Origin: Arthrobacter antibioticus
Lineage (GTDB): Bacteria > Actinomycetota > Actinomycetes > Actinomycetales > Micrococcaceae
Length of the DNA stretch: 64,000 nucleotides
NCBI RefSeq assembly: GCF_030063205.1
Contig: NZ_JASISQ010000003.1
Coordinates: 248,001-312,000, forward strand
Direction of reading: 5' to 3'
Both the position numbers and the translations under genes were made by a program. Positions 4,352 through 56,403 of this stretch are shown here, in pieces. The notes beneath the pieces are model-generated. The model saw only the letters and a program-made list of their open reading frames with translations. It was not told where the DNA came from and searched no databases. How positions within the stretch are numbered: the stretch's first letter is position 1; each line of letters opens with the position of its first letter.

Positions 4352-4415
4352 CTGCGTCGAAGTTGGAGATGATGACACCCCGGATGGGGTGTCATCATCT
4401 CCAACCTCGACGCAG
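4352..4415. terminator. Long palindrome 3' of deoA (TTGGAGATGATGACACCCC family)
   Basis: Arms 4352-4381 and 4386-4415 are complementary over 30 bp with a single mismatch and a 4-base loop (GGAT). It begins 6 bases beyond the deoA stop (minus strand), so it can act as a terminator or 3'-end stabiliser, though no strong T-run follows. The same core recurs at 18387-18450, 25789-25850 and 56333-56403. Confidence 0.85.
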
Positions 4416-4421
4416 GGCCGG

Positions 4422-5744
4422 TTAAGCGATACGGTCGATGATAAGTTTCGACGCTGGGCGAGAGCCCTCAGGTGCAATAGTCACGGCACCTTCGAGTGCT
4501 TCTTTGGCCCGGTCAAATTTCTCCGGAGTATCCGTCAGTAGCGTCATGAGTGGTTCGCCGGCGCGAACCATGGCGCCGGGTTTGGCATGCATCCGCACCC
4601 CGGCTCCTGCTTGGACAATATCTTCTCGCCGGGCCCGTCCGGCGCCCAGGCGCCATGCAGCGACTCCCACCGCCATGGCATCAAGGCCAACCAATACGCC
4701 GTCGGCCGGGGCATAGACAACCTCAGATTCACGAGCCACTGGCAGTGCCGCGTCAGGGTCTCCACCTTGGGCAGAAATCATGCGCCGCCACACATCCATG
4801 GCCCGTCCGTCCTTCAGCGCAGCAGCGGGATCAGCGTCGCGGATGCCGGCAGCTTCCAGCATTTCCTGCGCCAACCTCACGGTAAGTTCAACGACGTCCT
4901 CCGGTCCGCCACCGGCCAGCACCTCCACGGATTCCTGGACCTCAATGGCGTTTCCTGCCGTAAGTCCCAGCGGAGTGGACATGTCGGTCAGCAGCGCCAC
5001 GGTGTTCACCCCTGCGTCCTTGCCCAAGGCAACCATTGTTTGCGCCAGTTCCCGTGCCATGTCCACGCTCTTCATGAACGCCCCGGACCCAACCTTCACA
5101 TCAAGCACAAGCGCACCCGTACCTTCGGCAATCTTCTTGCTCATGATGGAGGAGGCGATCAGTGGAATCGCTTCAACCGTCCCGGTGACATCCCGGAGGG
5201 CATACAACTTCTTATCGGCAGGCGCCAGACCGGCCCCAGCGGCGCAAATGACCGCGCCCACATCGGCTAGCTGACGCATCATCTGATCATTGGTGAGATC
5301 CGCTCGCCAGCCCGGGATCGCCTCCAGCTTGTCCAATGTGCCACCGGTGTGGCCCAGTCCCCGACCCGAAAGCTGTGGCACAGCTGCGCCAAATACTGCG
5401 ACAAGGGGAGCAAGTGGCAACGTGATCTTATCGCCCACCCCACCCGTGGAGTGCTTGTCAGCCGTTGGCATCACCGCACCCTTTGCATTGCGCAGCGAAG
5501 AGAAATCAAGCGTATCTCCGGAGGCAATCATGGCGGCCGTCCACTGGGATATTTCCTGCCGGTTCATCCCGTTGAGCAAAATAGCCATGTTCAGTGCGGC
5601 CATTTGTTCCTCGGCGATGGTGCCTCGAGTGTAAGCATCAATGGTCCACTTGATTTGATCAGCGCTCAATATGCCCTTGTCACGCTTGGTCCGGATGATG
5701 TCAACAGCGTCAAACGCGGGGCCTGCATAAGATTCAGGGTTCAT
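4422..5744 (-). CDS. deoA: Thymidine phosphorylase
   Basis: Phosphorolyses thymidine (and deoxyuridine) to the base and deoxyribose-1-phosphate in the cytoplasm. The family signature is present in full as SGRGLGHTGGTLDKLEAI (about 130-147), together with KHSTGGVGDK (phosphate binding) and VGSGAFMKS. The length of 440 residues is usual for the pyrimidine nucleoside phosphorylase family. The ATG at 5744 was preferred over the one at 5759 because GGATGG lies about 7 bases upstream. It follows cdd by 88 bp and ends directly at a large palindrome. Its context, behind a nucleoside transporter and cdd, supports use of imported pyrimidine nucleosides. Whether uridine is also a substrate cannot be read from the sequence. 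Confidence 0.95.
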   Translation of the reverse strand: MNPESYAGPAFDAVDIIRTKRDKGILSADQIKWTIDAYTRGTIAEEQMAALNMAILLNGMNRQEISQWTAAMIASGDTLDFSSLRNAKGAVMPTADKHSTGGVGDKITLPLAPLVAVFGAAVPQLSGRGLGHTGGTLDKLEAIPGWRADLTNDQMMRQLADVGAVICAAGAGLAPADKKLYALRDVTGTVEAIPLIASSIMSKKIAEGTGALVLDVKVGSGAFMKSVDMARELAQTMVALGKDAGVNTVALLTDMSTPLGLTAGNAIEVQESVEVLAGGGPEDVVELTVRLAQEMLEAAGIRDADPAAALKDGRAMDVWRRMISAQGGDPDAALPVARESEVVYAPADGVLVGLDAMAVGVAAWRLGAGRARREDIVQAGAGVRMHAKPGAMVRAGEPLMTLLTDTPEKFDRAKEALEGAVTIAPEGSRPASKLIIDRIA

Positions 5745-5832
5745 AGTGTGTCCATCCAATTCTCAGTATTGAGTGTCTCTGCTGCGCTGACTGTCTGCGA
5801 TGACTGTCTCTTAGTTAAGCCTTGGCAGGGCG

Positions 5833-6258
5833 CTAATCTGCCGACGCACCCGCTGCTCGTTCCAAGTCCCTCGGGCCAAAGGCGTCGGGCAGGATTTGGG
5901 CCATGGTTTTTACCCCGGAGGAGGTCATCAGCCGCGTCTGCGCCGTGCTGAACTCGAACAGGATCTGCCGGCAGCGCCCGCACGGCATCAGAATTGCCCC
6001 GTCTCCGTCTACACAGTAGAACTCCGTGATGAGCCCTCCGCCGTTCATCTGTGCAGCGCCAATCATGGTGCACTCTGCACATAAAGTCAGTCCGTAGCTG
6101 GCATTCTCTACGTTGCATCCGGAGACAATGCTGCCATCAGCTAGTCTGGCCGCGGCCCCTACGGGGAACTTCGAATAAGGCACATAGGCGCGCCTCAGTG
6201 CTGCCGTTGCGGCCAGGCGGAGGGGTTCCCACTGCGCCTCGGACATGGTTGTGTTCAC
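5833..6258 (-). CDS. cdd: Cytidine deaminase
   Basis: Deaminates cytidine and deoxycytidine to (deoxy)uridine; small tetrameric zinc enzyme, 141 residues as expected. The motifs are GCNVENASYG, CAE with the zinc Cys and catalytic Glu, and PCGRCRQ with the two other zinc Cys residues. The GTG at 6258 follows AAGGAGTAAGC closely, a strong ribosome-binding site; an internal ATG four codons later is possible. It starts 3 bp after the permease gene, so it is almost certainly in the transporter operon. Its product feeds deoA. Confidence 0.96.
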   Translation of the reverse strand: MNTTMSEAQWEPLRLAATAALRRAYVPYSKFPVGAAARLADGSIVSGCNVENASYGLTLCAECTMIGAAQMNGGGLITEFYCVDGDGAILMPCGRCRQILFEFSTAQTRLMTSSGVKTMAQILPDAFGPRDLERAAGASAD

Positions 6259-6261
6259 CGC

Positions 6262-7557
6262 TTACTCCTTAATATATGGTTCGCCGTCGGCGGCTGGAGC
6301 CAGTGCTTTGCCAACAAAGCCGGACACAGCCAAAATTGTCAGGGCATAGGGCAACATGGCCAGGAACTGCCCGTCAATGGGAGTACCAGCGAGGGAAAGA
6401 ATGCTTTGTAAATTCCCTGCCACGCCAAACAACAAGGCGGCAAGGGCAGCACCAATCGGGTTCCACCGGCCAAAAATCAATGCGGCCAGAGCAATAAACC
6501 CAAGGCCACCGGTCATGTCCTTGCTGAAGCTGCTGACAGCCACAAGTGTGAAGTAGGCACCGCCTACCCCAGCCACTGCCCCACCGGCCAGCACGTTTAG
6601 CACACGGGTGCGGTTGACGTTGATGCCCACAGTATCTGCTGCTTTGGGGTGCTCCCCCACTGCACGCACACGCAGTCCCCAGCGGGTGCGGAAAAGCCCA
6701 AACCAAAGTGCCACTACAAGCACCAGCATGAAGTAACCAATGATCGACTGCCGGAACAGCGTGGGGCCGATGATCGGAATCTCAGACAGCAGCGGAATGG
6801 GGATGTTAGGCAGGTGTGCGGGCTGGTTGAAGATGGTCTCGCCGTTAACCTTTGTCTTCATGATCTTTTCAAACAGGAAACCCGTCAGACCCGAAACAAG
6901 CACGTTGAGCACCACACCAACAATGATCTGGTTGACCACGTACTTAATGCTGAAAACTGCCAAGAGAACAGAGACAAGCACCCCTGCCACAGCAGCCGCA
7001 AAGAGACCCGCGAACGCGTTATGCGTAATCGAGGCCACCAACGCGGCTGTGAACGCGCCCGCCAGCAACTGCCCCTCGATGGCGATGTTAACAACACCGG
7101 CGCGTTCCGAAAGTACTCCTGACAAGGAACCAAACACCAAAGGCGTAGTTATGAGCATGGCTCCGGTGAACAATCCAACGAGCGTGATGTTCTGGGTGGT
7201 GGTGCCACCGATCATCCACACCATCAGACCAATAACAAAGACCACGGCAAAGGACATAACAACCCATTTAGCGATTTTTCCGGTCACCTTGGTCTGGCTG
7301 TATGCCAGATAGGCCAGACCAACACAGAGCACCGAGACAATGATGCCCATAATCTTCGCTGGTAGGACCAAGTTGGGAACCTGCCAGGCATCGTTCTCTT
7401 GGGAGATGCGGAAGGTGGCTGTGCCGTCAGGGCCCAACACAATGAAGACGGCGACGGCGAACAGCGCCAATACGCCCAGGAGGATCGGAATTTTCCAGCT
7501 GCGAATGGCGACAGCGTCAACCACTTGACTTGGTTTGCTCTTGGCGGTGATGCTCAT
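6262..7557 (-). CDS. Nucleoside ABC transporter permease 2 (NupQ/YufQ-like)
   Basis: Inner-membrane permease of a BMP/PnrA-type ABC importer (BPD_transp_2 family). The 431-residue protein starts with a hydrophobic segment near residues 20-45 and has about ten predicted membrane helices. The conserved part runs from about residue 130 (FGSLSGVLSERAGVVNIAIE) through GVGGAYFTLVAVSSFSKDMTG to GFIALAALIFGRWNP, the usual pattern for this family. It overlaps the preceding permease gene by 4 bases and is followed 3 bp later by cdd. Purine or pyrimidine nucleosides are the inferred substrates, from cdd, deoA and add nearby; the exact specificity cannot be read here. Confidence 0.9.
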   Translation of the reverse strand: MSITAKSKPSQVVDAVAIRSWKIPILLGVLALFAVAVFIVLGPDGTATFRISQENDAWQVPNLVLPAKIMGIIVSVLCVGLAYLAYSQTKVTGKIAKWVVMSFAVVFVIGLMVWMIGGTTTQNITLVGLFTGAMLITTPLVFGSLSGVLSERAGVVNIAIEGQLLAGAFTAALVASITHNAFAGLFAAAVAGVLVSVLLAVFSIKYVVNQIIVGVVLNVLVSGLTGFLFEKIMKTKVNGETIFNQPAHLPNIPIPLLSEIPIIGPTLFRQSIIGYFMLVLVVALWFGLFRTRWGLRVRAVGEHPKAADTVGINVNRTRVLNVLAGGAVAGVGGAYFTLVAVSSFSKDMTGGLGFIALAALIFGRWNPIGAALAALLFGVAGNLQSILSLAGTPIDGQFLAMLPYALTILAVSGFVGKALAPAADGEPYIKE

Positions 7558-8783
7558 GCTGCAACTCCTTCATGGCGCACTGCCTTGATCCGGAACATGG
7601 AACGCACCAAGGGTGGCGCGGCAATGAACAGCACAATCAGGGACTGCACCACGGCAACAATGTCAATGGAAACGTCGGCGTTGATGGCCATTGAGGTGCC
7701 ACCTGCCTTGAACGCGCCAAAAAGGAGCGCGGCAAAGAACGTCCCCCAAGGTTTGGATCGGCCCAAAAGTGCCACTGTAATAGCATCAAATCCGATACTG
7801 CCGGCAATGTCAGAATCGAGAATTTTCTCTGTTCCAGCCAGCTGGGTGACGCCCGCAAGTCCGGCCAAGGCGCCGGAGATCAACATGACGGTGATGTAGC
7901 CGCGGGAGACCAGCATGCCAGCGGTCCGTGCTGCCCGCGGATTAGCACCTATTGCGCGGTACTCGAACCCCAGCGTGGAGCGGTTTAGCAGCCAAGAGAC
8001 AACAAAGACTGCCAGCACGGCCACGATCAGCCCTGCATGCACACGGTAGTTGGGGCCCAGCAGCAGCGGGAACATGGCACTCTCGTGCATGCGGGGGCTG
8101 ATGGGGTTGCTGCTATTGGGATCGCGCAGTTGGTTTTTGAGCAGGTACAGCACCAGCGAGACGGCGATGTAGTTGAGCATAATGGTCACGATCACTTCGT
8201 GAGCACCCGTGCGAGCCTTTAAGAACCCAGCAATGCCGCCCCACAGCGCACCACCAATGGCACCAGCGAGCACCACGGCTACCAAGTGGATGCCCGGAGG
8301 CAGCTCAATCATGAAACCAACGACGCCGGCAAAAGTGGCGCCGATGATCAGCTGACCCTTGGCACCAATGTTGAACAGCCCCACCCGAAACGCCAGTGTC
8401 ACGGCGAGTCCTGAAAGGATCAACGGTGTTGCGAAGGTCAGAGTTTCGAAAATACCCAATCTTCCCTGCCAGGTACGGGAACCTGGGTCATAGGTTGCAC
8501 CGCGCCACAGGGCACCATAGGCTTCCGAAATGGCAGCCCAGATGGCTTTGAACGTGGCACTTGGATCACCAAAGAAGTAGCCCAGTGCACTGGTTACCCG
8601 CGTATCGGTGAAAGCAATGAGTATCCCACCAATGACAAGTGCCACCAGCACCGCCAGAACGGAGATCATCGCGTTGCCGCTGACGATTTCACGCATCAAT
8701 TGGCTGCTGTTGCTTTCTTTCTGCGCTACAACTGGCGTCTTTGGGGACTCCGGTGCAGGCTTATTCACATCCACCCCACTCAT
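7554..8783 (-). CDS. Nucleoside ABC transporter permease 1 (NupP/YufP-like)
   Basis: Second integral-membrane subunit of the same importer, 409 residues. After a hydrophilic N-terminal ~30 residues a helix near MISVLAVLVALVIGGILIAF begins the membrane part. FETLTFATPLILSGLAVTLAFRVGLFNIGAKGQ (about 110-142, position guide) and GSIGFDAITVALLGRSKPWG are typical of the family. It overlaps the ATPase gene by 4 bases on one side and the other permease by 4 bases on the other, so the three subunits are translationally coupled. Confidence 0.9.
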   Translation of the reverse strand: MSGVDVNKPAPESPKTPVVAQKESNSSQLMREIVSGNAMISVLAVLVALVIGGILIAFTDTRVTSALGYFFGDPSATFKAIWAAISEAYGALWRGATYDPGSRTWQGRLGIFETLTFATPLILSGLAVTLAFRVGLFNIGAKGQLIIGATFAGVVGFMIELPPGIHLVAVVLAGAIGGALWGGIAGFLKARTGAHEVIVTIMLNYIAVSLVLYLLKNQLRDPNSSNPISPRMHESAMFPLLLGPNYRVHAGLIVAVLAVFVVSWLLNRSTLGFEYRAIGANPRAARTAGMLVSRGYITVMLISGALAGLAGVTQLAGTEKILDSDIAGSIGFDAITVALLGRSKPWGTFFAALLFGAFKAGGTSMAINADVSIDIVAVVQSLIVLFIAAPPLVRSMFRIKAVRHEGVAA

Positions 8784-10345: not shown

Positions 10346-10415
10346 CGTTTTAACCCGTCTGCGGATAATTTTCTTCTAATAGGTGCGTGTTGCTCGGCGA
10401 CTCTTGGGTGCCATC

Positions 10416-10466
10416 GCCGCCGCTGCCACATCACCAAGCTGATGCTGGTGATGTGGCAGCGGCGGC
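10416..10466. terminator. Perfect 21-bp hairpin between BMP lipoprotein gene and transporter genes
   Basis: Arms 10416-10436 and 10446-10466 are exact reverse complements (21/21) with a 9-base loop. It begins 36 bp past the lipoprotein stop on the minus strand and precedes the ATPase gene. No U-tract follows on the minus strand. It may be a partial terminator or an RNA-stabilising structure that lets the binding protein be made in excess over the membrane subunits; that role is inferred. Confidence 0.85.
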
Positions 10467-10501
10467 ATTTCCGGCTTGCTCAGGGCAAGCCCGGATGGCG
10501 T

Positions 10502-13157: not shown

Positions 13158-13277
13158 ACAAGAAACTCTAGCCTCGTCCGTGCGTCGTGGCTGTATTCGC
13201 TTCTCTGCGTTACTTTGCCGCAGCCAACCATTTGCACTTGGACAGTTTCCGGGGCTAAGGGCTCCTTAGGTAAAGAG

Positions 13278-18386: not shown

Positions 18387-18450
18387 TAGAGGTGTCATTA
18401 TCTCCAACCTCAGCGGGGTAGAGGTGTCATTATCTCCAACCTCAGCGGGG
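18387..18450. repeat. Direct repeat, 2 x 32 bp, of the palindrome-family half site
   Basis: Two exact 32-bp copies (18387-18418, 18419-18450) contain GGTGTCATTATCTCCAACCT. This is one arm of the palindromes at 4352, 25789 and 56333, here in direct rather than inverted order. It lies between the convergent sdhB and YihY genes. Confidence 0.9.
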
Positions 18451-18455: not shown

Positions 18456-19556
18456 TCAGTGGCGGGCTGTGTGGGACCTGTGAGGTCTTATGTCAGCCGC
18501 ATGGACTGCCGCGATGGCTGCCGAGATTAAGTACACCTGACTCAGGAGGAAGAACCAGACAAAAAGGCCCAAAATAACGGCAAAGGGGGCTAGCAGTGCA
18601 TTGTTGGTGACGCCGCTGAGCAGCATGGCGCTAAAGAACCGTAGGACGGTTGCGCCGGCACCGGAGAATAATGCGGCAAGGAGGAGCACCCGGCGCGGCA
18701 TGCGCACACGTGAGGCAATGCTGAACATGATCATGGCAACGGAGACGTCCAAAACAAACATCAAAACAACTGAACCTAGTTGAGCTGCCGCACCCGAGAG
18801 GAAGCTCCCCCAGCCCAGTGCATCACTGATGGTGTCAACGGCGGCTGTGCTGACCACCCCGAGCCCACTTGTCAGTACTAGCGCCACAGCCAGCACAATC
18901 AGGGTCACACCGTCTCGGACCTTGGAAAGCACAGGGTTGGTTCTATCCCGGGCGAGCCCCAAAATGGAGCGGATACCCTCCCGTAAGCCATTGATCCAGC
19001 TCATGGCAGTCACCGCCAAGGCCGCCAGAGAGATAATAAGGGTCTTCCCGAACGCGCCCGAGCCAAGGAGTTGTTCCGGTGTGAACAATCCGTTATTGCC
19101 TGTGTCAATCAATCCCGGGGTGGTGTCGGCAATGAGTTTAATGACTGCGTCTCGCAGCACATCGTTGCCGGCGGCGACAATACCAAAGATGGCGAACCCG
19201 GCGACAAGCATGGCACCAACAGAGAAAAACATGAGATAGGCGTTGCCTGCTGCCAGTAGCGGACCGCGACGTCGCGTGTAAAGGTACCAAACACGGGCCG
19301 GAAACTTTCCGCCCGCCCACGCAGTAAGCCACTGCATGAACGTGGACGCCTGCAAAAAGAAACTGCCAGTCTTTCGCGCCTCCACGTAGGCGCCGCGCTT
19401 CGACTCAACCCAGGTCGATAGGCCCTGGCGGTTCAGCGGGCTCGGCGGCGGTTTAGCCGGAGCGGCCATCGGATTCTTCGCACTCACCCCCGGAGCGGCA
19501 CTACCAGGGAAATAGGCCGGTTCGCGCTGAGTCTTAGGGTTTTGTTCCTCCGCCAA
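18456..19556 (-). CDS. YihY/virulence factor BrkB family membrane protein
   Basis: A 366-residue protein of the YihY/UPF0761 family, once mis-assigned as ribonuclease BN; molecular function is unknown. A hydrophilic Pro/Ala-rich N-terminus (about 60 residues) precedes six hydrophobic segments. Family features include QWLTAWAGGKFPARVWYLYT, AMSWINGLREGIRSILG and the C-terminal VWFFLLSQVYLISAAIAAVHA. The start is TTG at 19556, with GGAG upstream inside the ligT-like gene, which it overlaps by 23 bases. A direct repeat block follows its stop. Confidence 0.85.
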   Translation of the reverse strand: MAEEQNPKTQREPAYFPGSAAPGVSAKNPMAAPAKPPPSPLNRQGLSTWVESKRGAYVEARKTGSFFLQASTFMQWLTAWAGGKFPARVWYLYTRRRGPLLAAGNAYLMFFSVGAMLVAGFAIFGIVAAGNDVLRDAVIKLIADTTPGLIDTGNNGLFTPEQLLGSGAFGKTLIISLAALAVTAMSWINGLREGIRSILGLARDRTNPVLSKVRDGVTLIVLAVALVLTSGLGVVSTAAVDTISDALGWGSFLSGAAAQLGSVVLMFVLDVSVAMIMFSIASRVRMPRRVLLLAALFSGAGATVLRFFSAMLLSGVTNNALLAPFAVILGLFVWFFLLSQVYLISAAIAAVHAADIRPHRSHTARH

Positions 19557-25788: not shown

Positions 25789-25850
25789 GTTGAGGTTGGA
25801 GGTGATGACACCCCGGAGACCGCTGGGGTGACATCATCTCCAACCTCAAC
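25789..25850. terminator. Long palindrome 3' of the response regulator (same family as 4352)
   Basis: Arms 25789-25814 and 25825-25850 pair over 26 bp with two mismatches, 10-base loop. The core is TTGGAGGTGATGACACCCC. It lies about 90 bp after the regulator stop and may close that operon. Confidence 0.85.
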
Positions 25851-29625: not shown

Positions 29626-29926
29626 TACGGACTCCTGGTGGCAGCACGGAAAAAAACTCTTCTAGAAAAAGATTATCGCCAATCCGTTCATGGCCGCATT
29701 TGAAGACATTAGTACGCAACATGGTCTGGAGTTTGCTCCGGGCGCCATGTCTGGCTTCAGGGTTTATTCACGGCCAATGCGCGCATTGGCAAACGTGACC
29801 TCTCGTCCCAGGCGTACGATCGTGAGGTCTTCGCTAGTGCTGCTCCCCGGTGGTGTCCCACCTCATCGCCAGTTGCAACTCCTCAATTGTAGTACAGAGC
29901 CTGAATTCGACGGTAACGTTGAGTGG
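29626..29926. promoter_or_regulatory. Divergent region glyA / purU
   Basis: 301 bp that must hold both promoters. AAGATTATCGCC near 29670 is AT-rich and could be part of the glyA promoter. Frames stay open into the region from purU, but they carry no family sequence. No riboswitch fold was recognised. Confidence 0.4.
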
Positions 29927-30811
29927 GTGAATGATCTGAATTCCGCCGCCGTGATCACCCCGGCAGCCATGCACGGATACGTCCTAACTCTCTCCTGCTC
30001 CGACCAGCCCGGCATTGTTCACGCCGTTTCCGGTTCGCTGCTTGAGGCTGGCTGCAACATCACTGACTCCCAGCAATACGGCAACCCGGACACTGGCACT
30101 TTCTTCATGCGCGTTGCTGTGGAAACTACGACGTCGTTCAGCCGCCTCCGCGAGCACCTTGAGTTAATCGCGGGGAAGTTCTCCTTCAACTGGGCCTTGC
30201 ACCGCGTGGGTGCGCCAGTACGCACGCTGATCATGGCGTCTAAGGCCGCCCATTGCCTGAACGACATTTTGTTCCTGCAGCGCTCAGGGACCTTGCCAGT
30301 AGACATCCCGGCGATCGTCTCCAACCATCGCGATCTTGAGCCCCTGGCCGAGTTCTACGGCATCCCCTTCTACTACATCCCCGTCACCGCCGAGACTAAG
30401 GCCAACGCCGAGCGCCAGCTCGTTGAGCTGGTTGCCGAGCTCGACGTTGAACTTGTTGTTCTAGCCCGCTACATGCAGGTACTTTCTGACGAGCTGTGCA
30501 ACCACTTGGCTGGTAAAGCCATCAACATTCATCACTCGTTCCTGCCCTCGTTCAAGGGCGCCAAGCCGTACCACCAGGCTCATGCGCGCGGGGTGAAGAT
30601 CATTGGCGCCACGGCCCACTACGTGACAGCCGCACTGGATGAGGGGCCCATCATTGAACAGGAAGTCATCCGGGTGGATCACGGCCATTCGGTGGAAAAA
30701 TTTGTGTCAATGGGCCGCGCAGTTGAGGCACGCACCCTAGCCCAAGCGGTGCAGTGGCATGCAGAGCATCGCGTGCTGCTCGACGGACACCGCACAGTGG
30801 TCTTTGACTAG
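29927..30811 (+). CDS. purU: Formyltetrahydrofolate deformylase
   Basis: Hydrolyses 10-formyl-tetrahydrofolate to formate and tetrahydrofolate, balancing the one-carbon pool. An N-terminal ACT domain (YVLTLSCSDQPGIVHAVSG) precedes a formyltransferase-type domain with VVLARYMQVLS, NIHHSFLPSFKGAKPYHQA (Asn and His of the active site) and GATAHYVTAALDEGPIIEQ. The frame is open for 79 more codons upstream, but the family begins only about 10-17 residues before YVLTLSC; GTG 29927, GTG 29951 or ATG 29969 are all possible. Diverges from glyA-folD, a related function. Confidence 0.93.
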   Translation: MNDLNSAAVITPAAMHGYVLTLSCSDQPGIVHAVSGSLLEAGCNITDSQQYGNPDTGTFFMRVAVETTTSFSRLREHLELIAGKFSFNWALHRVGAPVRTLIMASKAAHCLNDILFLQRSGTLPVDIPAIVSNHRDLEPLAEFYGIPFYYIPVTAETKANAERQLVELVAELDVELVVLARYMQVLSDELCNHLAGKAINIHHSFLPSFKGAKPYHQAHARGVKIIGATAHYVTAALDEGPIIEQEVIRVDHGHSVEKFVSMGRAVEARTLAQAVQWHAEHRVLLDGHRTVVFD

Positions 30812-30833
30812 TCCCCACGTCCTCCCCCTGCTC

Positions 30834-30957
30834 GCAAGCTCACAGCGGGGCCCTCGGACGCGTGGGCCCAACCACGACCACCCTTTGCCCGCAAGCTCAC
30901 AGCGGGGCCCTCGGACGCGTGGGCCCAACCACGACCACCCTTTGCCCGCAAGCTCAC
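30834..30957. repeat. 57-bp tandem repeat (2.2 copies) after purU
   Basis: Units 30834-30890 and 30891-30947 are essentially identical, and a third copy breaks off after 10 bases (30948-30957). Each unit contains GGGGCCC...GTGGGCCC and can fold on itself. The 302-bp gap between purU and the next gene otherwise shows nothing but an AT-rich stretch near 30965-31080. Confidence 0.92.
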
Positions 30958-40350: not shown

Positions 40351-40474
40351 CGACGCTCGCTCACTCCACGTCGACTTTCCTTCGACGCTCGCTCACTCCA
40401 CGTCGAGAAATGAAGATCGCTCCTTCACTAGGTGAAGGAGCGATCTTCGATATACAACATCAAGTGAGCGAGCG
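40351..40474. repeat. Nested direct and inverted repeats between convergent genes
   Basis: CGACGCTCGCTCACTCCACG recurs exactly at 40351-40374 and 40383-40406 (24-bp identity each). The reverse complement of CGCTCGCTCAC is at 40464-40474. Between them is a perfect 17-bp hairpin (40412-40428 with 40432-40448, 3-base loop). The whole forms a hairpin inside a larger imperfect hairpin between the oxidoreductase and livF stops. Confidence 0.9.
40412..40448. terminator. Bidirectional terminator-like hairpin
   Basis: Perfect 17-bp stem GAAGATCGCTCCTTCAC with its complement, 3-base loop. It lies between convergent genes (stops 40342 and 40487). Confidence 0.85.
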
Positions 40475-40486
40475 TTGGGGTAGGGG

Positions 40487-45923: not shown

Positions 45924-45932
45924 ATTGAGCGC

Positions 45933-45967: not shown

Positions 45968-46011
45968 GTTACTTGTACTCGCCGGAGGGCTTCCAAGAAG
46001 CCTGGCGGGTC

Positions 46012-48413
<2,402 letters not shown>

Positions 48414-48917
48414 ATGGAACTTAAAGGAAAGCTCGCAGAAGCCATTAACGATCAAATTACGTTGGAGATTCAGGCCGCGATAGTTTATCGCCAGCTGGCC
48501 ATTGAAATGGATGTCCAGGACCTGCCCGGGATCTCCGGATGGTTCCTGGCCCAGTCTGACGAGGAACTGGTGCACGCACAGAAGTTCACGGATCATATGA
48601 CAGACCGCAATGCCTCGCCCAAGATCGGCACCATCACGGCCCCGAACGTCACAATCACCACGGTTCTTGAGGCTTTCGAGGCCTCCCTGGCGCACGAGCA
48701 GAAGGTCTCGGAGTCCATCCGCAACCTCTACCGCATGGCCCAGCAGGAGGGCGATATTGACTCCATTCCGCTGCTGAACTGGTTTGTGGAGGAGCAGCTG
48801 GAAGAGGAAGCCACAGTAGGGGAAATCATTGGCCGCGTGCGCCTCATTGGCGCCGACGGCAATGGTCTGCTGCGTTTGGATGCTGAACTGGGCTCCCGCA
48901 AGGAATCAGGACAGTAA
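48414..48917 (+). CDS. Ferritin
   Basis: 167 residues, non-haem ferritin of the bacterial Ftn type. It stores iron in a 24-mer shell. The ferroxidase residues are seen in TLEIQAAIVYRQLAIEMD (Glu, Tyr), DEELVHAQKF (Glu, His) and WFVEEQLEEEATV (Glu). ATG at 48414 follows TTGGAGTT. No neighbour in iron uptake is present; sdh and icd are the only linked genes. Confidence 0.95.
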   Translation: MELKGKLAEAINDQITLEIQAAIVYRQLAIEMDVQDLPGISGWFLAQSDEELVHAQKFTDHMTDRNASPKIGTITAPNVTITTVLEAFEASLAHEQKVSESIRNLYRMAQQEGDIDSIPLLNWFVEEQLEEEATVGEIIGRVRLIGADGNGLLRLDAELGSRKESGQ

Positions 48918-49112
48918 AGTGCGCGGCCGCGAGTTCACTCATGGCCGGCTAAGCCCGTGCCATGAGCGGTGGCGGCGCTGATGTCGGAGCAGATGGACAA
49001 GGTGCCCATCTGATCTGGCATCTAGCGCCATCAAGAAGGCGGGATGGCTTCAGCGTGCGTAGGAGCAACCGGCTTCTCACATGGCGTCTCCAGCTCCTTC
49101 ATTCTGGCTGTT

Positions 49113-49172
49113 AAAGTACGACGCCGGGGTGTCACCTTTCGCACGAAAGGTGACACCCCGGCGTCGTACTTT
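49113..49172. terminator. Perfect 28-bp hairpin
   Basis: Arms 49113-49140 and 49145-49172 are exact complements (28/28), 4-base loop (GCAC), T-run after it on the plus strand and TTTAAC on the minus strand. It lies between ferritin and the small minus-strand gene and can terminate both. Confidence 0.95.
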
Positions 49173-49193
49173 TTTATGCTCAGATCTTCGTTT

Positions 49194-49316
49194 TCAGCGC
49201 TTGCGCATCTGCACCACAATGCCCACCAACAGCGCCACAAACGCTGTGGCCACGATGCTCGTGATGAGTGTGGCCGCAACATAAGGTGCCAGCAACCACT
49301 CAAACAAATCAGTCAC
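49194..49316 (-). CDS. Small single-helix membrane protein (40 aa)
   Basis: GTG at 49316 opens a 40-residue frame: start MTDLFEWLLAPYVAATLI, a hydrophobic helix up to LLVGIVV, and a basic end QMRKR. The charge pattern (acidic start, basic end) is that of a real bitopic or peripheral membrane peptide. An in-frame stop just upstream makes GTG the only start; its ribosome-binding site is weak. It lies between two hairpins (49388-49423 and 49113-49172), which frame it like a one-gene unit behind purH. No family known to me. Confidence 0.6.
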   Translation of the reverse strand: MTDLFEWLLAPYVAATLITSIVATAFVALLVGIVVQMRKR

Positions 49317-49387
49317 ACTGCACGCTCATCTAAGGAGGAAGTGGGTGGGCCCACAGTCGAAACTATGGGGCCCCCGCTTCCGAGGGG

Positions 49388-49423
49388 CCCCAATTTCAGG
49401 TCGCTTGCGACCTGAAATTGGGG
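49388..49423 (-). terminator. Hairpin after purH
   Basis: CCCCAATTTCAGGTCGC (49388-49404) and its exact complement (49407-49423) are 2 bases apart; the real loop will be a little larger. It starts 12 bp past the purH stop. Confidence 0.85.
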
Positions 49424-49435
49424 AGGAAGTGGGGA

Positions 49436-51106
49436 CTAGTGGAAGAAGTGGCGGGCACCGGTGAAGTACATGGTGATCCCGGCAGCATTGGCCGCTGCAA
49501 TCACTTCTTCATCGCGTACTGAGCCACCTGGCTGAACAACTGCGCGCACTCCGGCGTCGAGCAGGATCTGCAGACCGTCGGCAAAGGGGAAAAACGCGTC
49601 GGAGGAAGCCACGGCGCCGATTGAGCGCTGCTCGAAAGCGGCCTCGGAGGACGCCGAGGCACCACCGGCACCGTCAACGTCGGAGGAGACAAGCACACCT
49701 AGGGTGTTGGCCCGTTCAACGGCCAGTTTGCAGGAGTCCACCCGGTTGACCTGCCCCATGCCGATCCCTACCGCTGCACCGTTTTTGGCGAGCAGGATGG
49801 CGTTGGATTTAGCAGCGCGGACTGCGGTCCAGGCGAAGGCCAGGTCAGCCAACGTGGCGTCATCGGCCGGCGCTCCTGCGGCGAGGGTCCAGTTGGCGGG
49901 GTTGTCGCCGTCGGCGTCGACCCTATCGCTCATCTGCACCAGCATGCCGCCGGAAACCTGGCGTACTTCCGCCGGGTAGCGGCCGTAGCCTTCCGGCAGC
50001 GCAAGCAGTCGGATGTTCTTCTTTTTGGAGAGGATTTCAACCGCTTCGGGCTCAAAGTCCGGTGCTATGACTACTTCGGTGAAGATCCGCGCCACAGTGC
50101 GGGCCATGCCAGCGGTGACGGTGCGGTTCGCGGCAATGACGCCACCAAAGGCGGAGAGTGGATCGCAGGCGTGAGCCTTAACGTGGGCGTCGGCAATGGG
50201 GTCCGCTGCGTCCACGGAGGCCACGGCTACACCACACGGGTTGGCGTGTTTGATGACGGCCACTGCCGGGACGTCAAAGTCGAATGCTGCACGTAAGGCA
50301 GCATCGGCATCGACGAAGTTGTTGTAGCTCATGGCCTTGCCGTGGAGCTGGTCTGCTTGGGCGATCCCCGAAGGTGCACCCTTGTCCACGTAAAGCGCTG
50401 CCTGCTGGTGCGGGTTTTCCCCGTAACGCAGTACTTCGGAGCGTTCAAGGGAGTAGCCGGCGTAGGAGGGCCAGTCGATGATGCCGTCGCCGTCCTCGTC
50501 CAGGAACTGGGCTGAGGTCCAGGCGGCTACGGCGTTGTCATAGGCGGCCGTGTGCGCGAATGCTGCGGCGGCCAGGCGCTGCCGGGCAATGAGTTCAAAG
50601 CCGCCGGACTGGGCCGCTGACAGTACTTCGCCGTATTTGGTGGGGTCAACAACAACGGCTACTGAGGGGTGGTTCTTGGCTGCGGCGCGGACCATGGAGG
50701 GACCGCCAATGTCGATCTGTTCTACAACTGCGTCCTGCCCGGCCCCTGATTTTACTGTGTCAACAAACGGGTACAGGTTAACCACAACAAGGTCGAACGG
50801 CTGAACGTTCATGTCTTCAAGCTGACGGACGTGATCCGGGAGGCGGCGGTCGGCGAGGATTCCGGCGTGAACCAACGGGTGCAGGGTTTTGACCCGGCCG
50901 TCCAAGGCTTCGGGGAAGCCTGTCACTTCGGATACTTCGGTCACGGGAATTCCGGCGGCAGCAATTTTGGCTGCCGTTGAACCGGTGGAAACAATCGCAA
51001 CTCCGGCAGCGTGGAGGCCGGCGGCTAGTTCCTCAAGCCCGGTTTTGTCGTAGACCGAGATCAATGCCCGGCGGATAGGAACTCGGTTATGCACAACGCT
51101 GGTCAC
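49436..51106 (-). CDS. purH: Bifunctional AICAR transformylase / IMP cyclohydrolase
   Basis: Performs the last two steps of IMP synthesis. The N-terminal methylglyoxal-synthase-like domain ([44 protein letters not shown]) is the cyclohydrolase. The C-terminal part is the transformylase, with [11 protein letters not shown] (catalytic Lys-His) and [12 protein letters not shown]. 556 residues from GTG 51106, which follows GGAGATTACCT; the frame opens to 51721 but only as antisense of nagZ. purN usually adjoins purH in relatives; here 6.3 kb of other genes lie between. Confidence 0.96.
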
Positions 51107-51182
51107 AGGTAATCTCCAGAGGTTCATTGATGATGGCGACACATAAAGTTTAGGCCACTTCGGCGCCGGTAGGATTTGCGGT

Positions 51183-52844
51183 ATGACTTCACGTGAGCTC
51201 AACCACACGCCGTCCTCCATAGACTCTGCATCCGCTGACCTCCCAGCAGATTTGTCCCGCCTGATTAACTCGGTGATTCTCCCCGGTTTTGTTGGCACCA
51301 CTGCACCAGGCTGGTTGGTGACTGCTCTTGAAAACGGGCTGGCCGGCGTCGTATATTTCAGCCAAAATATTGATCCCGACGCCCCTGGACAGGTGGCAGC
51401 TCTCTCTGCTTCTATCCGGGCCGCCAACCCGCAAGCTGTTATCGGTGTGGACGAAGAGGGCGGAAACGTCACCCGTTTGCAGTCCCGTGACGGCTCGGCC
51501 ATTCCGGGCGCGGCAGTGCTGGGTGCGGTAAATGAGCCGGCCCTGACGGAAGCTGCGGGGCGCGCAATCGCCCGGCTGTGCCGCAATGCCGGCATCAACT
51601 TGGCGATCGCCCCGGTGGCTGATGTCAATACCAACCCGCGCAATCCCGTCATTGGTGTGCGCGCGTTTGGTTCGGATACTGCATTGGTGGGCGTCCATAC
51701 TGCGGCTGCCGTCTCTGGCATTCAAAGTCTGCGCGTTGCCGCCTGCGCCAAGCACTTCCCCGGGCATGGTGACACTGTGGCTGATTCACACATGGACACG
51801 GCCCGCGTTGAGCTGACCTTGGCGCAGATGACGGCATCCCATCTGCCCCCGTTCAAGGCCGCCACGGATGCCGGGGTTGCTGCGATGATGAGCGCACACA
51901 TCATCATCCCCGAGCTGGGTGAGGCCCCGGCCACCCTGAACCCGGCGGCGAGCGCACTGCTGCGCACGATGGGCTTTGAGGGCGTGCTGATTACTGATGC
52001 ATTGGACATGGCCGCCGTTCGAGCAACCGTTGGCCCCGGGGAGGGTGGCGTGCTGGCATTGCTGGCGGGCAACGACCTGTTGTGTGTGGGCAACCCGATG
52101 AACGCCTACACCACAGGCCGTGATGACGAGTCCTGCTACACCGAGGTTTACGACGCCCTGTTTGCTGCGGCTTCCTCCGGGCGGTTGCCTGTGGAAACCT
52201 TGCGCCGGGCTGCTGCCCGTGTGCAGGGGCTGGCGCAGTGGTCTGCCGCGGAGGTTTCCCTTGAAGCGGACGACGACGTCGATTGGGTTTGCGTTGCTGC
52301 CCACGCCTGCCGTGTTGACTCGCCAGGTACACCAGCACTGGCAGGCTCCGGTGCGGTGACGCTGTTGGATGCGCGCACCGGGCACAATATGGCCGCAGGT
52401 CCCACCGCGAATTTCATGGCAACAGCCTTGAGTGATTATGCGGTGACTGCCATCAGCGTGGCAGGGCTCTCCACAGCGGAACTGGACACTGCCTTGGGCC
52501 AAACACCTTCCGGTACAGGGGACACGATGCAAGGAACCGTCCTTGTCATGGTTGACTCGTTGGAGTCTCCGGCGCAGCAAGAAACTCTGCAACTGGTTCT
52601 TGCCCGGGCACCCCGGGCAATCTGCATCAATGTGGGTCTCGCTACTTCGGAACCAACAAGTTTTATGACAATCCATGCCTATGGTTTCAGCCGAGTCAGT
52701 GCTCTTGGCGTGGTCAGCATATTAGAATCCCTCTCCTCCGTATCGTCCTCCCGTTCCCTCTCTCCCTCTCCCACCCTCTCCCCCTCTCCAACCTCAACGA
52801 GAACCCACGAAAATCTGAGCCCACAGTTCTGCAAGGAAGAGTGA
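51183..52844 (+). CDS. nagZ: Beta-N-acetylhexosaminidase, GH3 (NagZ type)
   Basis: Cuts GlcNAc from muropeptides or MurNAc-containing fragments. GH3 features: [36 protein letters not shown], the acid/base loop [16 protein letters not shown] and the nucleophile Asp in [11 protein letters not shown]. No signal peptide is seen, so it is probably cytoplasmic. The C-terminal ~200 residues are a further domain. The last ~40 residues are low-complexity ([19 protein letters not shown]) and come from a pyrimidine-rich tract that ends in a half palindrome. First of nagZ-murQ-hydrolase-MFS; its stop is 3 bp from murQ. Confidence 0.92.
52725..52803. repeat. Pyrimidine tract plus palindrome-family half site in the nagZ 3' end
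   Basis: 52725-52789 is almost only C and T. CTCCAACCTCAACGAGAA at 52786-52803 is the exact reverse complement of 25784-25801 in the palindrome there. The tract codes for the Ser/Pro-rich NagZ tail. Confidence 0.85.
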
Positions 52845-52847
52845 CCC

Positions 52848-53792
52848 GTGACCATCCACGAAAAGTCGATCCACAGTGAAACAGTTCGATCCGAGATTGG
52901 AACGCTGACAACAGAAGCTTCCAATCCCCGCTACCCGGATCTAGCCGCACTTTCAACAGCAGAGCTTGTTGCTGGAATGAACAGTGAGGATGCTTTAGTC
53001 CCTAAGGCCATTGAGAAGCAGCTTCCCGTACTTGCCACAATCATCGATGAGGTTGCAGCTCGCATGGGCCGGGGCGGCAGATTAATTTATGTGGGGGCCG
53101 GAACGCCAGGTCGCATGGGGATCCTGGACGCTAGTGAATGCCCGCCTACCTTCGGAACTGATCCGGAGCTGGTGGTGGGCATCATCGCCGGGGGTCAGGC
53201 GGCCGTTAAACAGGCCGTTGAAAATGCCGAGGACAGCGCCGAAGCGGGGACTGCTGACATGGCGGCATTGCAACTGGGCCCCCACGATTCAGTGGTGGGG
53301 ATAGCCGCATCCGGACGTACTCCTTATGTCATTGCCGCCATTGAAGCCGCCCGGACGCAGGGTTGCTATACAGTCGGATTTGCCTGCAACAATAACTCTC
53401 CGCTGGGAGCTGCGGCCCAGAGTGCTCTGGAAATTGAAGTGGGCCCAGAGTTCCTGACTGGTTCCACCCGGCTGAAATCCGGTACCTGTCAAAAGATGGT
53501 GTTGAACATGATCAGCACCATCACCATGGTGCGACTGGGGAAAACCTACAAAAACGTCATGGTTGATCTTCGCGCCACGAACGCCAAACTCCATGCCCGC
53601 AGCGAACGTACTCTCATGCAGGTCACCGGGTGCGACGCCGAAGCAGCGACGGCAGCCTTGGCCGCAACCAATGGCCACGTGAAAGCGGCGATCCTCTCGA
53701 TCATGACAGGTTTCTCTGCAGCACAGGCGGCAACGCTATTGGCTCAAAAGGATGGGTTCCTGACGGCCGCGATCGACGCCGGGAGGCACTAA
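52848..53792 (+). CDS. murQ: N-acetylmuramic acid 6-phosphate etherase
   Basis: Cleaves the lactyl ether of MurNAc-6-phosphate to GlcNAc-6-phosphate and lactate. SIS-domain protein of 314 residues: YVGAGTPGRMGILDASECPP (near 82-101), GIAASGRTPYVIAAI, SPLGAAAQSALEIEVGPEF and LKSGTCQKMVLNMIST with the catalytic Glu regions usual for MurQ. GTG at 52848 follows AAGGAAGAGTGACC. Cotranscribed with nagZ. No MurNAc PTS or kinase gene is in the window, so the source of its phosphorylated substrate is open. Confidence 0.96.
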   Translation: MTIHEKSIHSETVRSEIGTLTTEASNPRYPDLAALSTAELVAGMNSEDALVPKAIEKQLPVLATIIDEVAARMGRGGRLIYVGAGTPGRMGILDASECPPTFGTDPELVVGIIAGGQAAVKQAVENAEDSAEAGTADMAALQLGPHDSVVGIAASGRTPYVIAAIEAARTQGCYTVGFACNNNSPLGAAAQSALEIEVGPEFLTGSTRLKSGTCQKMVLNMISTITMVRLGKTYKNVMVDLRATNAKLHARSERTLMQVTGCDAEAATAALAATNGHVKAAILSIMTGFSAAQAATLLAQKDGFLTAAIDAGRH

Positions 53793-54868
53793 TGCCTGCC
53801 ACTCACCGAATACTTGAAACCAAAATACAAAAACTGCTGAATCAGTGCGTGCAGGACCGCATAGCACCAGCGGCGAGCTGCGCCGTTGTGCTGCACCATG
53901 ATTGGCTACCGGAACTCATCGCCGGAGAAGCGTCACCACAGACATTTTTTGACTTAGCTTCCGTGACAAAACTATTCACCACCGTCACAGCACTTTCGCT
54001 AGTTGACAGTAAAGCTCTGGAACTCGATGCACCCATCGGGCGAATCTTGCCCACCTACCGGCAAGGCCAGAAAGCTACAGTGACGTTGCGGCAGCTGCTG
54101 ACGCACACCTCGGGGCTCCCATCACAGTGGCGGGGATGGGAGCGCTCCCTGAATGAGGGGCGGGGATTTGAACGTGCGCGGCTAGTTCAAGACTTGTTGG
54201 ACACTGCCCTGGAAGCACCTCCAGGAACACGTTTTGAGTACTCCTGCGCAGGATTTAACACCATCATGGTTTTGGCTGAACATGCGACGGGGCAACCGTG
54301 GGCCGCCCTTGTCCATGACAGGGTTTTGGCGAAGCTTCCCACTTCAGGCCTCACCGGTACCCCCCGGGTGGAGCACTGTGCACCCACGGAATACCAGCAC
54401 GCATTGGGCCGTGGACTTATTCAAGGCATAGTCCACGACGAGGCGGCTTGGTCCCTGGGCGGACTCAGCGGCAATGCCGGTATGTTCGCCACGTCGGGTG
54501 GACTTGTAGCATTTGGCGAGTCCCTGGGCCGAGGGCTGCCCGGCATCCTCTCCCCCGGACTCGCTGAGGAAATGTGGCGCAGCCAGCTGCCCGAGATATT
54601 GGGTAACAATTTCAATCCAGAGGATCCCGCCTCCGGGCACAGTCTAGGCATGCGCATCAATGCGCAGACGTGGATGGGCTCACACGCCCAAGAAGCCCGA
54701 GGACACGGTGGATTTACCGGCACCTCACTGCTGATCGATCGCGAGCACAGTCTCTCGATCGCATTGCTGACCAACCGTGTAAGCCCCAGCCGGGACGGGG
54801 ATGACGCAACCAACCTGCGCAAGGCTGTGTCCGACGTCGTCTATTCTGGTGAAAATAACCCTCGCTGA
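53792..54868 (+). CDS. Serine hydrolase, beta-lactamase / D-Ala peptidase family
   Basis: 358 residues, class C beta-lactamase fold. SxxK is in ASVTKLFTTVT (Ser about residue 58), the second motif appears as YSCAGFNTI where Tyr-x-Asn is usual, and the third is GHGGFTGTSLLID (HxG). No signal peptide, so it should be cytoplasmic, in contrast with penicillin-binding proteins. It is coupled to murQ (overlap TAATG at 53792) and so probably trims peptides from recycled muropeptides or acts as an esterase; substrate unknown. Confidence 0.87.
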   Translation: MPATHRILETKIQKLLNQCVQDRIAPAASCAVVLHHDWLPELIAGEASPQTFFDLASVTKLFTTVTALSLVDSKALELDAPIGRILPTYRQGQKATVTLRQLLTHTSGLPSQWRGWERSLNEGRGFERARLVQDLLDTALEAPPGTRFEYSCAGFNTIMVLAEHATGQPWAALVHDRVLAKLPTSGLTGTPRVEHCAPTEYQHALGRGLIQGIVHDEAAWSLGGLSGNAGMFATSGGLVAFGESLGRGLPGILSPGLAEEMWRSQLPEILGNNFNPEDPASGHSLGMRINAQTWMGSHAQEARGHGGFTGTSLLIDREHSLSIALLTNRVSPSRDGDDATNLRKAVSDVVYSGENNPR

Positions 54869-54883
54869 TCAGGACACAGGAAC

Positions 54884-56236
54884 ATGAGCAACCCAACGCC
54901 CCTACTCACCGGCGACCGCGTAGTGCAGGAACTCCCTTGGCGTTGGCGCGTGCAAGGCAGTATCTTCCTGATCGGCGGGCTCGGCTTCATGTTCGATGCC
55001 TGGGATGTCACCCTCAATGGCTTCCTGATTCCGCTGCTGTCCAAAGAGTGGGGGCTCAGCACCGGGCAAGCGGCATGGATCGGCACAGCCAACCTGATTG
55101 GCATGGCAGTTGGTGCTTTCGCTTGGGGATCTATCGCGGACATTATTGGGCGCAAAAAGGCGTTCACACTCACCCTGCTCATTTTCTCCATTTTCACGGT
55201 TCTTGGTGCCGTCTCCAACGAGATCGTTCTCTTTTGTGTGTTCCGTTTTCTGGCAGGTTTTGGCCTGGGCGGGTGCATTCCCGTGGACTATGCGTTGGTG
55301 GGTGAGTTCACTCCCCGCAAACTCCGCGGCAGGGTATTGACGGCCATGGATGCGTGGTGGCCAATCGGGGCGTCCCTGTGTGGGGTGGTTTCAGCTGTGC
55401 TGATGGCATCATTTGGGAACTGGCGGTACCTGATGCTGGTTATGGTGCTCCCGGCTCTGCTCGTTTTTTGGGTTCGTGTGGGTGTGCCAGAATCACCACT
55501 GTATTTGGTGCGGGCCGGCCGTCCAGCGGAGGCTAAAGCTGTCATTGAACGCCTCATTGAAAGAACCGGGGCCACAGTGGGTCCCTGGACACTGCCAGAC
55601 GCGGCAACTGCACCAAAACTATCTCTGGGCAAGATCACCGACCAGTTGGCGGGACTGTGGCGTTTCAACTGGCGTGTCACAGGGGTGGCCTGGTCACTGT
55701 TTCTAACAATTTTGCTGGTGTACTACGGCGCTCTGACGTGGATGCCCTCCATTTTGGTCGCCACTGGCTACGCCGAAAATAAAGCGTTCATGGCCACCGC
55801 GTCAATGACAGCCATTGGATTACTGGGGGTGGTTGCTGCTGCACTGCTTGTAGAGCGGCTGGGACGCAAATGGATTCTGGCCGTTACCGGTCCCTTGGCA
55901 GCGTTGTCATTGGTGATTTTTGCGCTGGTGTTGGATGCCCCTGTGGCCGCTCAAATCTGGTTGCTCGTGTTTGGTTTTGTCATACAAGTTGCCATTCCTG
56001 TGCTCTACACCTATGTGTCAGAGCTTTATCCCACGCACCTGCGCGCCACCGGTTTTGGCTGGGCTTCTACTGTTTCGCGGGTGGGTGCCGGGCTGGTTCC
56101 ACTAATTTTCGGCTCCCTCCTATGGCCCGTATTGGGCTTACCTCTCACCTTCGCACTGACCGGTGGGCTTGTGGTGGCGGCAGTTATCTGGATGGCGATC
56201 TCCGCCCCGGAAACCAAGGGCACCGTCCTGGACTGA
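54884..56236 (+). CDS. MFS transporter, sugar-porter-like
   Basis: 450 residues, 12 hydrophobic helices. Loop 2-3 motif GSIADIIGRKKAFTL and the loop 8-9 ERLGRKWIL are typical of the major facilitator superfamily, MHS/sugar-porter side. The first helix has FMFDAWDVTLNGFLIPLL with Asp residues, as in aromatic acid/H+ and sugar symporters. The ATG at 54884 follows CACAGGAAC, 15 bp after the hydrolase stop. The operon context makes a cell-wall sugar or muropeptide its likely substrate; that is an inference. Confidence 0.88.
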   Translation: MSNPTPLLTGDRVVQELPWRWRVQGSIFLIGGLGFMFDAWDVTLNGFLIPLLSKEWGLSTGQAAWIGTANLIGMAVGAFAWGSIADIIGRKKAFTLTLLIFSIFTVLGAVSNEIVLFCVFRFLAGFGLGGCIPVDYALVGEFTPRKLRGRVLTAMDAWWPIGASLCGVVSAVLMASFGNWRYLMLVMVLPALLVFWVRVGVPESPLYLVRAGRPAEAKAVIERLIERTGATVGPWTLPDAATAPKLSLGKITDQLAGLWRFNWRVTGVAWSLFLTILLVYYGALTWMPSILVATGYAENKAFMATASMTAIGLLGVVAAALLVERLGRKWILAVTGPLAALSLVIFALVLDAPVAAQIWLLVFGFVIQVAIPVLYTYVSELYPTHLRATGFGWASTVSRVGAGLVPLIFGSLLWPVLGLPLTFALTGGLVVAAVIWMAISAPETKGTVLD

Positions 56237-56332
56237 GCGCACTGCCGATATTCCACCCAACCGCATCCACCCCACGCCCCACGCCCGAACCACGGTCCTG
56301 GCCCACGTCCACGCCTCGACCCACTCCCCACG

Positions 56333-56403
56333 CCCCGGTGAGATTGGAGATCATGACACCCCGGCCGAAGAACGGGGTGCCATGATCTCCAATCTCACCG
56401 GGG
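56333..56403. terminator. Long palindrome 3' of the MFS gene (same family as 4352)
   Basis: Arms 56333-56362 and 56374-56403 pair over 30 bp with one mismatch, 11-base loop. Core ATTGGAGATCATGACACCCC. About 95 bp after the MFS stop, it probably ends the nagZ operon. The stretch 56255-56335 before it is rich in CCCAC and CCACGCC words. Confidence 0.87.

Follow-up and report, generated by a model that had tools for sequence, protein, structure and literature searches.

Introduction

Repeats at bacterial gene ends are usually explained either as repetitive extragenic palindromes (REPs) driven by RAYT transposases or as terminators. In REPINs, two inverted units make up a hairpin-forming doublet, and in eukaryotes the TTF-I/Sal-box and Reb1 terminator sites are polar repeated boxes placed directly past the gene end. 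In excerpts of the literature on REPs, the unit is described as a palindrome of 21 to 65 nt, and IS1397, ISKpn1, and other REP-targeting insertion sequences (ISs) are described as inserting into such repeated palindromes (PMC1525189). According to the excerpted text of a second report, REPs tagged with GTAG or CGTC lie downstream of genes, often as pairs in opposite orientation and chiefly where the neighboring genes are convergent or run in the same direction; the stop codon of the neighbor is in some cases part of the REP, and the CGTC REPs are said there to have no dedicated transposase (PMC3733652). Here, we analyzed a family of long palindromes found in a 64,000-nt stretch of the Arthrobacter antibioticus genome (the window: positions 248,001 to 312,000 of the forward strand of contig NZ_JASISQ010000003.1, or G000:C15:248001-312000, strand +, where G000 is the genome of the window) and followed it through 23 genomes of the genus.

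A genome-wide family of polar units

The palindromes of the window are members of a genome-wide repeat family. At up to 3 mismatches, TTGGAGATGATGACACCCC gave 40 + 40 matches across G000 and none when reversed; in the window alone, it matched 8 times, compared with 0 in 100 shuffles. Half-units at the same threshold numbered 83 in G000 (3.8 Mb) and 81 in G058, a genome of the same species, with 0 for the reversed control, and the stretches of G000 that were read contained 52 clusters. The unit is a polar box of approximately 24 nt, GA-N2-TTSGAGATNAYSAC, and its consensus was drawn from 94 units of G000 and 66 of a second species, G021, each within 6 mismatches of the species consensus and with all positions weighted alike. 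Positions 4, 5, 8, 9, 11-13, 15, 17, 20, and 21 are near-fixed in both genomes, position 16 is free in both, and the variability per position is correlated between them (Spearman 0.58, p 0.003). The freedom of position 16 is partly built in, because most loci were picked with a pattern that left it open; the fixed positions are unaffected. Loci L059 and L063, which match the 19-mer at 3 mismatches, fail the 24-nt unit at 4 mismatches and were left out. The first-pass annotation of the window had proposed a dispersed family resembling REPs and bacterial interspersed mosaic elements (BIMEs), and not unrelated terminators. Copy number and similarity beyond the core bear this out: the 83 half-units clearly exceed the copies of the window, and the likeness extends over a 24-nt consensus. 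The copies in the window are the following.

4351..4416: facing pair (long palindrome), plus-strand unit 4356-4379 and minus-strand unit 4388-4411, loop of 4 nt between the arms
18391..18446, minus strand: two direct units, 18391-18414 and 18423-18446, 32-nt period, sense-oriented
25789..25850: facing pair, plus-strand unit 25789-25812 and minus-strand unit 25827-25850, fold of -50.5 kcal/mol
52785..52798, minus strand: 14-nt piece of the unit, GTTGAGGTTGGAGA, in the 3' end of an open reading frame (ORF) of glycosyl hydrolase family 3 (GH3, 'nagZ')
56333..56403: facing pair, plus-strand unit 56337-56360 and minus-strand unit 56376-56399, fold of -62.1 kcal/mol

Three near-perfect palindromes had been recognized previously and were recovered here within a few bases, with arms of 31 nt (97% complementary, gap of 4 nt) at 4351-4416, 26 nt (92%, gap of 10 nt) at 25789-25850, and 31 nt (97%, gap of 9 nt) at 56333-56403. 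The half copies in direct order reported near 18387-18450 are the two units at 18391-18446, and the 'nagZ' fragment is present at 14 nt, its span having been slightly off (52786-52803). The copies had also been placed just 3' of coding regions. Stop codons do stand on the 5' sides of the units, but "just" was loose: by our own gene caller, the distance is 10 nt from a minus-strand pyrimidine nucleoside phosphorylase-like gene (4422-5759) for the first pair, 9 nt from a minus-strand BrkB-domain gene (18456-19556) for the direct units, which also face the end of a plus-strand iron-sulfur (Fer2_3) gene, 91 nt from an upstream response-regulator gene for the 25789-25850 pair, whose other neighbor is a thermolysin-like protease gene, and 100 nt from the preceding MFS transporter gene for the 56333-56403 pair. 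At the orthologous junction of this last pair in G021, units are found too.

Gene-end placement and strong hairpins would also be expected of unrelated intrinsic terminators whose likeness is due to chance or convergence. Copy number and shared sequence already refute that explanation, to which we assign a next to negligible probability: no matches arose in shuffles or with the reversed pattern, the copies have a 24-nt sequence and a recurring loop core in common, no T-run follows the window copies, and unpaired single units exist. A short asymmetric unit, inverted gene-end pairs, and species dialects are likewise reminiscent of DNA uptake sequences, some of which in Neisseria form inverted pairs at gene ends. 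However, known uptake sequences are far denser and are common in coding DNA too, whereas here 83 units at up to 3 mismatches are spread over 3.8 Mb and 48/52 clusters are intergenic, so that this origin appears very improbable.

The exact 21-mer pattern was found in five stretches of the GTDB contig set (from which the genome of the window was possibly excluded), namely, one of Arthrobacter wenxiniae and four single matches in unrelated taxa, apparently fortuitous; in that set, the family was not found to be widespread among other bacteria. A looser pattern gave 12 single matches in viral contigs. A known RNA family was rejected as the identity of the palindromes, since the sole Rfam match in the window at the gathering level was a ZTP riboswitch, with none at the palindromes. 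No description of the family was found in open-license papers searched for the unit strings, the G005 and G019 units (see below), Arthrobacter and Actinobacteria repeats, REP/RAYT, bidirectional terminators, and gene conversion; the excerpted RepRanger text (PMC12306157) holds a table row for Arthrobacter livingstonensis, without detail.

Placement at gene ends and polarity

Most boxes are located past a stop codon and are oriented away from it. They occur singly, as direct repeats (mostly 31 to 33 nt apart; 32 to 33 nt in G000, with some at 43 to 45 nt), and as facing pairs that form a stem of approximately 27 bp. Among the 52 clusters of G000, 31 were paired, all in the order "+ then -," 17 were same-direction clusters, and 4 lay within predicted ORFs, leaving 48 outside. 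Fifteen of the paired clusters stood between two stops, 16 between a stop and a start, and none between two starts. In G021, where 20 loci were read and 4 match places were left out, 1 of 24 clusters was within an ORF, and all 18 pairs had the same order, again with none between two starts; for the family as a whole, 0/51 paired clusters were found between two gene starts, the places in G003 and G018 having been read in part. Six divergent and 4 convergent junctions were counted among the 37 junctions of at least 60 nt in the window, against which the lack of divergent pairs (Fisher p 0.02) and the excess of convergent ones (p 0.0007) were assessed. A stop codon was present on the 5' side of 16/17 same-direction clusters in G000 and 5/5 in G021. 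Where such clusters in these two genomes had one stop and one start as neighbors, 11/11 pointed away from the stop (p 0.001). Some copies themselves supply the stop codon of the neighboring gene, by means of the TGA within the GTTGAGG of the unit.

Mapping of the copies thus upheld the gene-end placement proposed in the first-pass annotation, which missed both the polarity of the units relative to the gene and their lineage-specific spellings. At L054:1466-1534, two units 45 nt apart lie near the start of a predicted ORF; they may be translated, because 45 is a multiple of three.

Comparison with REPs and transposase search

Like the REPs and BIMEs of E. coli and Pseudomonas and the GTAG/CGTC REPs, as far as the excerpts describe them, the Arthrobacter units are placed downstream of genes, form opposite-orientation pairs, and supply stop codons; the many extragenic copies typical of REPs are also present (83 units, 48/52 clusters intergenic, 31 paired). 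In contrast, the unit is not itself a stem-loop (a single unit folds at -0.2 kcal/mol, z +1.07), no RAYT is present, single units are polar to the stop, and direct arrays run at 31- or 41-nt steps. Neither a GTAG nor a CGTC tag was seen by eye on either strand of the G000 consensus; units of G021 that carry GACG have CGTC on the opposite strand, and the absence of a tag is clear for G000 only.

The Y1/RAYT transposase domain (PF01797) had no match in G000, G058, G021, or G005, and for this reason a RAYT/REPIN origin was rejected. It was detected in 2 of the 23 genomes, once each in G016 and G019, beside what by eye is a TnpB-like ORF, as in IS605. No IS with ends matching the unit was noticed, though a full IS survey was not made. 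The idea of a mobile element that depends on a transposase encoded elsewhere received no support: the search for a RAYT/TnpA-REP enzyme came up empty in those four genomes, and the one IS linked to the family uses its loops as targets and has unrelated ends. Because the unit fails the stem-loop definition and a RAYT is lacking, we regard the family as a gene-end repeat variant and not as a REP. As in REPINs, a facing pair of units forms a hairpin; unlike REPINs, the family has no RAYT, very short loops, and no sign of recent movement. The likeness to the TTF-I/Sal-box and Reb1 sites is one of layout only.

Facing pairs as hairpins

The three pairs of the window fold at -50 to -62 kcal/mol, with z scores of -10.5 to -13.9 (-60.4 kcal/mol and z -13.9 at 4351-4416), and the tandem units at 18391-18446 show no stable fold (z -0.45). 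In the 29 adjacent facing pairs of G000, the arms were 96.8% alike within a pair, compared with 87.9% when arms were re-dealt among pairs (maximum, 90.8%), and complementarity continued past the unit for 1.69 nt versus 0.70 nt, a value reached by 0/2,000 shuffles. Among the 696 pair cells, 39 were double-changed and 22 were not Watson-Crick. Loops had been described as differing while arms are kept; loops do vary, but they are not wholly free, as GAGGRACGA recurs in either orientation in 11/29 loops of G000 and 4/17 of G021 (counted by eye). In the gathered DNA, 17/28 distinct occurrences of this motif sit in such hairpin loops, in both orientations, compared with 0/13 for the reversed motif.

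The facing pairs are most likely bidirectional RNA hairpins, and a terminator or mRNA-end role is plausible. When transcribed, a facing pair would give a strong hairpin usable from either side, which may end or trim transcripts and shield mRNA 3' ends; facing pairs would then be tolerated or kept only at gene ends. Slippage may generate the direct repeats, and fold-back (template-switch) correction, together with recombination among copies at different sites, may maintain the match between arms. The full reading, in which polar boxes of approximately 24 nt form a REP/BIME-like gene-end family not made by a RAYT and their pairs act as bidirectional hairpins that end transcripts or protect mRNA, is one to which we would give an even chance.

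Comparison with a second strain and insertion of an IS3-family element

G058 flanks were mostly 98 to 99% identical to those of G000. Units were kept at 48/48 cluster sites of G000 with a G058 counterpart; L055, L062, L064, and L068, which lie beyond the 3-mismatch list that guided the choice of loci, were outside this comparison. The only unmatched clusters of G058 were the far halves of three palindromes split by an IS. Differences comprised the number of direct units (one at L048 versus three at L166; two at L070 versus one at L204; L051/L214 rearranged), one arm deletion (L169), and the three IS insertions; at 25789-25850, 6/62 aligned bases differed. With every one of the 48 compared sites occupied in either strain, recent movement was not seen.

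An IS3-family element of 1.44 kb is present in G058 in three full copies, and every copy interrupts the loop of a palindrome that is intact in G000. Facing units approximately 1.48 kb apart in G058 are accounted for by these insertions, one of which (L167) is bordered by a GAA direct repeat, and the ends of the IS are unrelated to the units. The element was rejected as the source of the palindromes, since its ends are unlike theirs and the same palindromes stand in G000 without the element. Nine of 15 strong matches to the element were examined (3 in G058, 2 in G002, 2 in G005, 1 in G001, and 1 in G014). Both ends were found in six, and all six (3 in G058, 2 in G002, and 1 in G005; raw count) sit in a hairpin loop; the other three were not judgeable. 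It is thus largely established that the hairpin loop is a landing site of the element. As the G002 and G005 copies occupy loops of other hairpins, the element seems to target a broader range of hairpin loops. It resembles IS1397 and ISKpn1, as excerpted, in belonging to the IS3 family and inserting into repeated palindromes and differs from them in the use of other hairpins. L150 and L151 are 99.87% identical over 1,508 bp, loop remnants included, yet the loop at the G000 counterpart of L151 is a different one, which suggests copying between palindromes by recombination.

Short MITE-like palindromes (MITE, miniature inverted-repeat transposable element) apparently built from both ends of the IS3-family element occur at L249 (G000/G058) and L246 (G014). 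Separately, the window contains another repeat at 40351-40475, in which direct 24-nt copies carry GACGCTCGCTCACTCCACGTCG and a 44-nt inverted repeat contains a GTGAAGGAGCG motif; strings like these flank the small IS-end palindrome in L249 (G000:C1:30948-31005 and flanks).

Shared loci and dialects in other species

Within the species the positions of the units are stable, and between species some of them are shared; spelling is lineage-specific. At up to 3 mismatches, the unit was found in 6 of the 23 genomes (G000, 83; G058, 81; G021, 40; G018, 10; G003, 9; G020, 1), with none in the other 17. Seven of the 20 G021 loci are orthologous to family loci of G000, six by at least two genes and one (L056/L188) by one gene. 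The units at these shared loci have the G021 core spelling; L056 and L188 have a locus-specific GTTGAC in common.

Other genomes have units of their own. GTTGAGAGCCCAGATAATCCC had 58 matches in G005, with no other of the 23 genomes exceeding 1 match (reversed control, 0), and CATACTGCAGCTCCTGCGAGT had 69 in G019, 20 in G007, 13 in G008, and at most 2 elsewhere (reversed control, 1 each in G017 and G019). Units in G005 and G019 stand at direct steps of mostly 31 and 41 nt and as facing pairs, with no "- then +" neighbors. In each of the eight G005 clusters that were read, a stop codon flanks a unit on its outer side, and none of these clusters lies between two starts. The G005 and G000 units may be related, since GTTGAG-N5-AGATAAT is common to both; no such likeness was seen between the G019 and G000 units.

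Two gene ends were followed across the genus. Among 22 orthologues of the L045 gene end, units were present in G000, G058, and G021, with one opposite-strand unit in G003; G005 had its own unit, G019 had another, and other hairpins occurred in G011, G014, G009, G018, and G010, the rest being weak or without one in a hairpin test blind to loops longer than 23 nt. At the end of this orthologue in G018 and G010 (L265 and L270), we also observed GGTCGAGCYTGTCGAGACC-type gene-end repeats. Repeats of this type are common in Actinobacteria; their strings had no match in the open-license literature. Among 18 orthologues of the L041 gene end, units were present in G000, G058, and G021, and G018 had a degenerate pair. 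Other hairpins occurred in G011, G006, G016, G012, G014, and G019, weak ones in G001, G007, G008, and G017, and no hairpin arm of at least 9 was found within 200 nt after the stop in G005, G013, G002, and G015. Because this gene end is occupied in some genomes and without a hairpin arm in others, units must have been gained or lost.

Such turnover, with remnants in G018, is what a selfish or neutral miniature element would produce if it were spread by a transposase or by recombination and survived at gene ends as a harmless insertion. The near-neutral look of divergence within the species and the presence of the loop core in both orientations point the same way. However, no matching transposase ends were noticed, no Y1 transposase occurs in G000, G058, G021, or G005, all 48 sites are occupied in both strains, and tolerance alone does not predict the polarity of single units (11/11). 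We consider this origin rather unlikely.

Weighing the hairpin reading

Several observations weigh against facing pairs at gene ends acting as transcript-end hairpins. Gene ends were assigned with a codon-usage caller written for this analysis and trained on the window, not from annotation, and therefore individual assignments can err. Only 4/58 gene junctions of the window have a cluster. One of the 17 same-direction clusters of G000 (L050) follows a start, and a stop was found on the 5' side in only 4/5 such clusters of G003 and 2/4 of G018. In the G019/G007/G008 dialect, two predicted starts flank 3/11 clusters (one of the three is paired), and one cluster is inside an ORF. Matching of arms is clear in G000 only: the 17 pairs of G021 were weakly matched (87.0% versus 83.2%, with shuffles of up to 88.0%), and their outer extension was not above chance, being reached by 330/2,000 shuffles. 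Intrinsic terminators combine a GC-rich hairpin with a T-run; here the hairpins are strong and the T-run is absent, none being seen by eye after the three palindromes of the window, and a terminator scan of 46000-64000 did not list 56333-56403. Between G000 and G058, the elements differed at 46/2,231 positions (40/48 clusters), or 23/2,066 without the rearranged L051, compared with 161/23,527 in genic flanks. As this rate is not below that of genic flanks, purifying selection is not seen at the within-species scale. Finally, one 24-nt unit on its own showed no fold beyond chance; because single units do not fold, a hairpin role leaves singles, direct arrays, and their polarity unexplained.

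This gap is why we retain, as an unlikely explanation, one in which the oriented GA-N2-TTSGAGATNAYSAC is read by a DNA-binding protein, such as a roadblock or transcription-end factor, with pairs giving each convergent gene its own box and specificity drifting by lineage. Position-specific constraint that agrees in two species and polarity to stop codons even in unfolded singles are consistent with protein-binding boxes, as is the similar layout in G005 and G019, where the unit sequences are different. Spacings of same-direction units, mostly 30-33, 41-45, 52, 62, and 82-83, are near whole helix turns, with a mean vector of helical phasing of 0.71 over 22 distinct spacings, the best of six periods tried and a figure without a chance level. 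However, the spacings 23 and 68 fall outside this pattern, multiples from one array are not independent, and invariant positions could also reflect recent common ancestry of the copies. The binding protein is hypothetical, and the G000 loop core and arm matching past the unit favor hairpins. The outer length of facing pairs was bimodal and not clearly phased. By analogy with Sal-box/TTF-I termination, the boxes might even be its bacterial counterpart, helically phased, oriented boxes after stops whose spelling and cognate protein have changed together among Arthrobacter lineages while the layout was kept; this we regard as distinctly unlikely.

Stated most cautiously, the boxes form a population of repeats at gene ends that is biased toward transcript ends, for functional reasons or through tolerance. 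A RAYT-less family that is polar to stops, has constraint common to two species, and has respelled counterparts in sister lineages, in some cases at an identical gene end, allows the long-standing question of whether such repeats are parasites, RNA signals, or protein sites to be tested directly in culturable soil bacteria. The family also suggests how an IS finds safe landing sites.

Other features of the window

A 29-bp perfect palindrome followed by a T-run lies at 49113-49172 and looks like a strong intrinsic terminator; it was rejected as a family member, its arm having no second genomic match within 3 mismatches. The ZTP riboswitch detected with Rfam occupies 29799-29886 on the minus strand. 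At 30815-30928, 3' of an ORF ending at 30811, there is a 57-bp direct duplication whose copies are 91% identical.

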